The notes beneath the pieces were generated by a model that had not been told where the DNA came from, did not search any database, and was given only the letters and a program-made list of their open reading frames with translations. A program made the translations under genes and the position numbers. DNA of 64,000 bases from Halogeometricum sp. S1BR25-6 (GTDB lineage Archaea > Halobacteriota > Halobacteria > Halobacteriales > Haloferacaceae): NCBI RefSeq assembly GCF_031624495.1, contig NZ_JAMQOP010000001.1, positions 992,001 to 1,056,000 on the forward strand. Reading direction: 5' to 3'. Of this stretch, positions 47,234 to 48,553 are shown one piece after another (position 1 is the stretch's first letter; the number at the start of each line of letters is the position of its first letter).

Positions 47234-47240
47234 CTTAAGT
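47234..47240 (+). promoter_or_regulatory. TATA box positioned for the mini-ORF at 47263
   Basis: CTTAAGT, centred about 26 nt before ATG 47263. The ferritin-like gene start (47301) is 64 nt away, so the predicted leaderless transcript begins at the mini-ORF. Confidence 0.55.
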
Positions 47241-47262: not shown

Positions 47263-47304
47263 ATGAACGTCAGAGTATCGCACGCGCCCGAGGTGACGGT
47301 ATGA
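47263..47304 (+). CDS. Predicted leaderless 13-codon mini-ORF before ferritin-like gene
   Basis: Encodes M-N-V-R-V-S-H-A-P-E-V-T-V; TGA 47302-47304 overlaps ATG 47301 of the next gene. GAGGTGA (47290-47296), a strong Shine-Dalgarno, lies within it 4 nt before that ATG. First element of a four-ORF chain joined by ATGA overlaps. Confidence 0.5.
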   Translation: MNVRVSHAPEVTV

Positions 47305-47798
47305 GCGTCGGTCGCCGCGTCACCTCAGACCACCAACTCGCCCGTCTCCTCCAGATCGGCATCGTCTTAGAGGAAGTGGTCGAGGCGCGGGCGCACCACC
47401 ACTACCAATCGCTCGCGGACGACGAGCGCGAACTCGACGAGGAGATAGAGGAACTGCTCGAACACGCCGCCGAGGAGTCCGCGGAGCACCGCGACCGCTT
47501 GGAGGGAATCATCGCGGACCTCGACGCCGAGAGCATCCCCTTCGAGGACATCGAGACGCTCGTGGAGGCGCAGTACGGCAGCACCAAACCGGAAGACTTC
47601 GACGGCGTCCTCTACGACCAACTGTGCAACGAGGAGACGGCCTACAAGTTCTACGACGACCTCATCGACGCCATCGAGGCCAGCGAGGCGGAGTTCAGCG
47701 TCGACAGGGAGCATCTCGTCCGCCTGCTCACCGAGATTCGAGAGGAGGAGGCCGAAGGCGTCGAATCAGTGACCCGAATCATGGAGACGCGCGAATGA
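47301..47798 (+). CDS. Ferritin-like/rubrerythrin-type four-helix protein
   Basis: A 165-aa mainly helical acidic protein. Helix 1 has I-V-L-E-E-V-V-E-A-R-A-H-H-H-Y, helix 2 L-L-E-H-A-A-E-E-S-A-E-H-R-D-R-L, helix 3 N-E-E-T-A-Y-K-F-Y-D-D-L-I-D-A-I and helix 4 I-R-E-E-E-A-E-G-V-E-S-V. The repeated E and E-x-x-H positions are those of diiron ferritin-like proteins. Start and stop both overlap mini-ORFs, and the SirR-type regulator follows, so iron (or Mn) handling is a reasonable inference. The exact activity is not known. Confidence 0.78.
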   Translation: MSVGRRVTSDHQLARLLQIGIVLEEVVEARAHHHYQSLADDERELDEEIEELLEHAAEESAEHRDRLEGIIADLDAESIPFEDIETLVEAQYGSTKPEDFDGVLYDQLCNEETAYKFYDDLIDAIEASEAEFSVDREHLVRLLTEIREEEAEGVESVTRIMETRE

Positions 47799-47830
47799 GC
47801 CGAACGCAGCGACGCGGAGGACATCGATGA
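47795..47830 (+). CDS. 11-codon mini-ORF bridging ferritin-like gene and SirR-type gene
   Basis: Encodes M-S-R-T-Q-R-R-G-G-H-R. Its ATG overlaps the TGA of the ferritin-like gene (ATGA 47795-47798) and its TGA overlaps the ATG of the next gene (ATGA 47827-47830). The Shine-Dalgarno GGAGG (47816-47820) for the SirR-type gene is inside it, 6 nt before that ATG. Function probably translational coupling. Confidence 0.5.
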   Translation: MSRTQRRGGHR

Positions 47831-48267
47831 ACACCGCAGACCAGTACGTAAAGGCAATTTACCTCCTACAGGAGATGGAAGACGGCCCGGCAGCGACCGG
47901 CGCTCTCGCGGACATGCTCGACGTGAGTCCGGCGAGCGCGAACGAGATGATCGGCAAACTCGAAGAGCGCGGGCTCGCCGAACACGAGAAGTACAAGGGC
48001 GTCCGCCTCACCGACGAAGGTATCGTGCGCGCGCGCGACGCGCTCAAGACCTACTGCATCATCGAGCGGTTCCTCGCGAACGTCCTCGACGTCGAAGAGT
48101 TCCGCGGGGAGGCGCGCGAACTCGAACCCGTCATCGACGACATCGTCGCCGAGCGACTCGACACCATCATCGACCGCAACGACGAGTGCCCCGACTGCTT
48201 CGACCCCGAGACCGACGCCTGCTGTTACCTCGAAGTGGCCGAAGTCGAAGAACGCCCGGCCGACTAA
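47827..48267 (+). CDS. sirR: DtxR/SirR-family transcriptional regulator (short form)
   Basis: A 146-aa metal-dependent regulator. Winged helix (about 1-60) with T-A-D-Q-Y-V-K-A-I-Y-L-L-Q and V-S-P-A-S-A-N-E-M-I-G-K-L, then the dimerisation domain with Y-C-I-I-E-R-F-L. Unlike the regulator at 3448 it lacks the FeoA/SH3 domain. Instead it ends with a cysteine cluster E-C-P-D-C-F-D-P and A-C-C-Y-L-E, which could bind metal or sense redox state. It is the last gene of the chain starting at 47263. Confidence 0.87.
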   Translation: MNTADQYVKAIYLLQEMEDGPAATGALADMLDVSPASANEMIGKLEERGLAEHEKYKGVRLTDEGIVRARDALKTYCIIERFLANVLDVEEFRGEARELEPVIDDIVAERLDTIIDRNDECPDCFDPETDACCYLEVAEVEERPAD

Positions 48268-48355: not shown

Positions 48356-48553
48356 ATGGTAGGAACGATCGGACGCCTCCTCCGACTCGCGGGCGTGGGA
48401 CCCGGCGGTCGGACGGAGGTGACGGGGAGTCCCGAGTTCCCGTACGTCTGTCGCGGATGCGGGACCGCCTACGACGTCCAGTACCACGTCTGCCCCGAGT
48501 GCGGCGGCTTCTCCGTCGAGCGCTCCCCGAGTGTCAGCGTCGACGCGGGCTGA
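48356..48553 (+). CDS. Small zinc-ribbon protein (65 aa)
   Basis: A 65-aa protein with C-R-G-C-G and, 13 residues later, C-P-E-C-G, giving a four-cysteine zinc ribbon. The first 25 residues are Gly/Arg-rich. ATG 48356 is the only start upstream of the ribbon in frame. It lies alone between sirR and the tRNA gene. Function unknown. Confidence 0.75.
   Translation: MVGTIGRLLRLAGVGPGGRTEVTGSPEFPYVCRGCGTAYDVQYHVCPECGGFSVERSPSVSVDAG

Follow-up and report, generated by a model that had tools for sequence, protein, structure and literature searches.

In Haloferax volcanii, strict translational coupling has been reported for all nine gene pairs studied, and mutation of the Shine-Dalgarno (SD) motif lowers reinitiation in most of the pairs tested (PMC6728339). 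For three gene pairs of the same organism, reinitiation is much reduced at a distance of 13-14 nt and nearly absent at 22-23 nt, and in Escherichia coli the last 15 nt of the upstream gene suffice (PMC10666635). The locus described here resembles the H. volcanii pairs (PMC6728339, PMC10666635) in having ATGA overlaps on the same strand, an SD motif ahead of the downstream gene, and an origin in the same class; unlike in those pairs, the partners include mini-ORFs that would serve solely to span gaps or, at a leaderless 5' end, to accept ribosomes, and the coupling is a prediction.

Short leaderless upstream ORFs (uORFs) coupled through RTGA overlaps are known in mycobacteria (PMC4633059), and in the case of uPPE2-PPE2, the dependence of downstream expression on uORF translation was demonstrated experimentally (PMC11260477). 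The similarity to the present case lies in a short uORF that ends in RTGA on the next gene and in the proposed delivery of ribosomes (PMC4633059, PMC11260477). The arrangement considered here, however, is archaeal, is variable in length but frame-locked across an entire class, and includes a second relay between two full genes; moreover, uPPE2 has an SD motif and is located inside a riboswitch leader. MIRUs also couple with the gene at the insertion site, with -4 spacing (review PMC12548453), but these are dispersed repeats whereas the mini-ORFs of this locus occur locally, and those of different genera are unrelated in sequence; a second copy of the mini-ORF 2 stretch (query positions 596-631) was not found in the same genome. 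The mg2 minigene of the axe-txe operon (PMC8708949) similarly acts in cis on the next gene (txe) in a frame- and distance-sensitive manner but consists of only two codons and is proposed to act via mRNA stability rather than reinitiation. Finally, short ORFs upstream of haloarchaeal genes are represented by the 5'-UTR uORFs of H. volcanii (PMC4983044); these, however, consist of 15-31 codons within UTRs of 150-250 nt, and the available part of that report describes no stop/start overlap relay.

The four-ORF chain and its two proteins

The window analyzed here is a 64,000-nt stretch of the 4.5-Mb genome of Halogeometricum sp. S1BR25-6. It contains, on the forward strand, the four chained ORFs delineated in an earlier note, with ATGA shared by each stop codon and the next start, so that all three junctions are same-strand -4 stop/start overlaps. 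A TATA-like box (CTTAAGT, 47234-47240) is centred 26 nt before the ATG at position 47263, which opens mini-ORF 1 (47263-47304; 13 codons, MNVRVSHAPEVTV). This ORF, which would be of the leaderless type, ends in ATGA on the start of the ferritin-like gene and encompasses the hexamer GTATCG (47275-47280), which is conserved as nucleotides, and the SD-like motif GAGGTGA (47290-47296) preceding that gene. The ferritin-like gene (47301-47798; 165 aa) is followed by mini-ORF 2 (47795-47830; 11 codons, MSRTQRRGGHR), which has ATGA at both ends and carries the SD-like motif GGAGG (47816-47820) for the next gene, that of a DtxR-family metal-dependent regulator (47827-48267; 146 aa). The box and both SD motifs are located where the earlier note placed them; the leaderless transcript that it proposed to begin on mini-ORF 1 is plausible, with a predicted 5' end at or next to 47263. 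Just 3' of the regulator gene, there is a 65-codon ORF (48356-48553) with a weak match to a zinc ribbon (zf-ChsH2, below the curated cut-off).

A Pfam search with the ferritin-like protein identifies the Rubrerythrin family (E 7.6e-5, just above the curated cut-off). The predicted model is a helical bundle (pLDDT 80), and the best Foldseek matches are Dps and bacterioferritin, with a probability of 1.00 and TM values up to 0.74 but E-values of 0.031 at best; as modelled, the protein appears to be a four-helix bundle of the ferritin type. A search of PDB sequences with the alignment of this protein yields no match, and NCBIfam has no name for it. The gene is represented in 146 of the 148 genomes of the family and in 385 of the 391 genomes of the class. 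More distant second copies (58-60% identity) are found at G144:C1:27318-27809 and G042:C1:52983-53474.

The regulator contains both the DNA-binding domain and the dimerization domain of DtxR (Fe_dep_repress, E 3.3e-17, and Fe_dep_repr_C, E 5.4e-10). It is probably the ortholog of HVO_0863, that is, TroR (PMC11349517), because the published forward primer located upstream of HVO_0863 matches the Haloferax loci exactly (no mismatches in L083, L089 and L157; the reverse primer was not found there). In the Haloferax loci, the primer site is just upstream of the start of mini-ORF 1. As regards the designation "SirR-type" used in the earlier note, the regulator probably corresponds to TroR rather than to HVO_0819, the H. 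volcanii protein named SirR.

Stop/start overlaps and reading frame across Halobacteria

The comparison includes 163 distinct orthologous loci (denoted L) from the class Halobacteria, each with both genes and with identical copies removed; the closest named relative among the loci collected is Halogeometricum pallidum (96% protein identity). The very distant loci L190-L193 were excluded from the counts; their junctions, inspected by eye, include three direct ATGA overlaps and one with a +1 gap. Changes in spacer length were inferred on a tree of both proteins.

At the junction between the ferritin-like gene and the regulator gene, NTGA links lead to the regulator start in 151 of the 163 loci. 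In 38 of these, the two genes overlap directly (-4, ATGA), in 108 the gap is bridged by a single in-frame mini-ORF that is 3-48 codons long and has NTGA at either end, and in five there are two chained mini-ORFs (spacers of 72, 111, 114, 177 and 183 nt). Eight loci show -1 or +2 spacing, and four are near-misses, namely, TAATGA in L035 and L081, TGATG in L086, and a mini-ORF ending 2 nt before the regulator gene in L019. The spacers with one mini-ORF come in 29 different lengths, from 4 to 139 nt, all of which equal 1 modulo 3. The tree implies 64 length changes, 43 of these between gapped states; the frame is kept in 38 of the 43, and the other five coincide precisely with the acquisition of a second chained mini-ORF. 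When one locus is taken from each cluster below 80% DNA identity, 27 of the 29 gapped junctions are bridged.

Short stop-free frames are common in G+C-rich DNA, which raises the possibility that the overlaps arise by chance and are meaningless. Indeed, in 66-69 of 80 loci, the spacers lack stops in both remaining frames as well, and because these frames are so often open, stop-free length is weak evidence and was set aside. However, all 29 lengths have the value of 1 modulo 3, and the independent clusters are nearly all bridged; the frame lock already refutes chance, the probability of which is negligible. The controls point in the same direction. They comprise 388 further same-strand junctions whose genes are separated by 4-150 nt, taken from the window and from neighbourhoods no larger than 20 kb; of these, 12 (3%) are bridged, compared to 54 of 55 at the ferritin-like/regulator junction, and the control gaps are spread across the three phases (156/130/102), with the caveat that the control genes come from a simple gene caller with imperfect starts, which may blur a phase bias and hide some bridges elsewhere. 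Several of the 12 bridged controls have CTG as the presumed start, and two are located at the ferritin-like gene itself.

Of the 154 loci in which the ferritin-like gene ends in TGA, 152 have A or G just before this stop codon (A in 129), compared to a frequency of A of 9.5% at the other third positions, so that a start codon (ATG or GTG) is retained at the ferritin-like stop in the same 152 loci. This observation bears on the alternative whereby ribosomes undergo a -1 frameshift at every NTGA and thereby produce a fusion protein, with the frame kept open for readthrough rather than for reinitiation. A minor frameshifted fusion has been detected at the AUGA overlap of uPPE2-PPE2 in Mycobacterium (PMC11260477), but a frameshift does not need the start codon, nor does it account for the SD motifs ahead of the next start, which makes this alternative extremely improbable. 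In loci with spacers of at least 19 nt, GGAGG is found no more than 18 nt from the regulator start in 59 of 79 cases, and among the shortest mini-ORFs 2 (3-6 codons), 20 of 27 lack an SD motif before the regulator gene. In Haloferax, mini-ORF 2 is just three codons long.

At the 5' end, an ATG located 20-34 nt past a TATA-like box opens mini-ORF 1 in 123 of the 163 loci; these mini-ORFs consist of 9-31 codons and end in NTGA on the ferritin-like start, i.e., in overlaps of the RTGA type. A choice of the boxed ATG that ignores the frame still yields the coupled frame in 124 of 128 cases. On the tree, all 31 changes in the length of mini-ORF 1 are multiples of three (30 of 32 with the frame-blind choice of ATG). 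A boxed, coupled mini-uORF precedes only 3 of 1,168 other gene calls, made with the same simple gene caller, and two of these three represent the ferritin-like/regulator locus itself. In another 23 loci, mini-ORF 1 is missing and the box directly serves the ferritin-like gene, and the two groups differ at the ferritin-like start: an SD-like motif precedes it in 113 of the 123 loci that have mini-ORF 1 vs 1 of the 23 that do not, and the start codon is GTG in 88 of 123 vs 0 of 23, neither comparison being corrected for phylogeny. The raw counts, here and above, overstate independence because the loci are related, and the Fisher values likewise carry no phylogenetic correction. The contrast is as expected if the ferritin-like gene is reached by reinitiation in the mini-ORF 1 group and by a leaderless start in the 23 loci.

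There are several exceptions and local variants at this junction. The stop of mini-ORF 1 comes 4 nt too soon in L121. In L074, L082 and L140, the boxed uORF has 24 codons and does not end in NTGA; it is read in another frame, and its last 29 nt lie within the ferritin-like gene. The loci with the box directly at the ferritin-like gene, where mini-ORF 1 is absent and SD motifs are very rare, include L124-L134, L151-L155, L104 and L110. A scan with bacterial promoter and terminator models, which are ill-suited to archaea, revealed nothing, and there was no match in Rfam. Genomes of the Halalkalicoccus type have a suf gene immediately before the ferritin-like gene, and here, too, the gap is spanned by a mini-ORF. 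In the same type of genomes (L098, L109, L144-L150), the junction with the regulator gene contains local repeat-like units with NTGAAC ends; a dispersed MIRU-like element was considered for this unit and rejected given that searches yielded only short or local matches.

Codon positions and the GTATCG element

The substitution rates at codon positions 1, 2 and 3 are.082,.052 and.249 in the ferritin-like gene, compared to.168,.199 and.128 in mini-ORF 1 and.223,.170 and.214 in mini-ORF 2. The excess of substitutions in the third position is absent in both mini-ORFs, so that constraint at the peptide level is not detected, and the peptide sequences show no relation between genera. The conserved peptide or regulatory codons that characterize leader-peptide attenuators are not found in these mini-ORFs either. 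The one feature that speaks for functional small peptides, e.g., leader peptides that sense the supply of metal or amino acids, is a recurrent Val-Ser pair that is present in 54 of the 85 distinct mini-ORF 1 peptides. In 44 of the 54 cases, however, this pair is spelled GTATCG, and because GTA is a rare valine codon, the pair appears to be a nucleotide element rather than a peptide motif. Together with the codon-position test and the range of 3 to 48 codons, this renders a peptide function very improbable.

The hexamer occurs in 24 of the 87 distinct upstream regions, against 3.8 expected, mostly 9-12 nt past the ATG of mini-ORF 1 in related loci, and the pattern TTAAGT-N30-50-GTATCG has a single occurrence in the genome of the host. 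GTATCG is thus a nucleotide motif and a candidate operator or RNA element.

A probable relay of ribosomes between genes

Given that the lengths and peptides of the mini-ORFs vary whereas the overlaps and the frame almost never do, the mini-ORFs probably hand the ribosome from gene to gene. Both are thus most likely translated relays for termination-reinitiation that lack a peptide function, a reading derived from the comparison of sequences. The few departing loci at both junctions, and the SD motif that is mostly missing before the regulator gene when mini-ORF 2 is shortest, speak against it. Under this model, a leaderless mRNA would begin at or next to the ATG at 47263, and ribosomes that translate mini-ORF 1 would terminate at the TGA within ATGA and reinitiate on the ferritin-like gene; after that gene, they would terminate again, reinitiate on mini-ORF 2, and then once more on the regulator gene. 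There would be no untranslated stretch from the first ATG to the end of the regulator gene, and therefore the TroR-type regulator would be made mainly by ribosomes that have just completed the ferritin-like protein. Because reinitiation in H. volcanii fades with distance, the 28-nt gap in the window, if not bridged, should break the coupling to the regulator gene; translation of mini-ORF 2 would restore the overlap across it. Selection would then keep the stop/start overlaps and the frame while leaving length and peptide free, and the simplest account of the data is that spacers appear now and then but persist only when read as an in-frame mini-ORF.

The predictions of the earlier note fare unevenly in this light. 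The absence of the overlaps from relatives, which would have counted against it, is not what is seen: the architecture recurs across the class, with frame-locked spacers. Its proposal that the mini-ORFs serve as couplers gains support from the kept overlaps and frame, with the qualification that mini-ORF 1 is missing in the 23 directly boxed loci. Alignment of the junctions in relatives bears out that the overlaps rather than the peptides are conserved, but the lengths of the mini-ORFs, also expected to be conserved, are so only modulo 3. No archaeal relay mini-ORFs or class-wide frame lock were found in the literature searched, which includes few subscription papers. As far as this literature goes, the description of such couplers as a new layer can be upheld for archaea only, because AUGA-coupled uORFs and end-overlapping mini-ORFs have been described in mycobacteria (PMC4633059, PMC11260477, PMC12548453).

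The mini-ORFs might also be regulatory valves, such that ribosomes are lost at each reinitiation step and the ratio of the ferritin-like protein to the regulator is set thereby, perhaps in response to metal or to the state of the ribosome. All the comparative data are compatible with this possibility, reinitiation efficiency differs among the gene pairs of H. volcanii (PMC6728339), and a conserved GTATCG element is present inside mini-ORF 1. However, the mini-ORFs between the two genes vary frequently in number and length and are absent from 38 loci, as though little depended on how many steps there are; regulatory valves appear rather unlikely. In the fullest form of this idea, for which a tentative case at most can be made, the peptide-free relays of haloarchaea, one located at the leaderless 5' end and at most two separating the genes, would constitute a controlled valve that sets the amount of the main iron regulator TroR per ferritin-like protein, with GTATCG as the control point.

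With the mini-ORFs viewed as relays, the locus seems to document, in nature, selection for translational coupling as such, the peptide being free to change: more than 50 inferred changes of spacer length at one junction conform to a constraint that nothing but a ribosome engaged in translation would impose. The choice of haloarchaeal ribosomes between reinitiation and scanning across gaps thus becomes readable from genomes, and mini-ORF 1 would provide a concrete archaeal case of uORFs that deliver ribosomes. The locus also suggests that joint synthesis is required for the TroR-type iron regulator and the ferritin-like protein.
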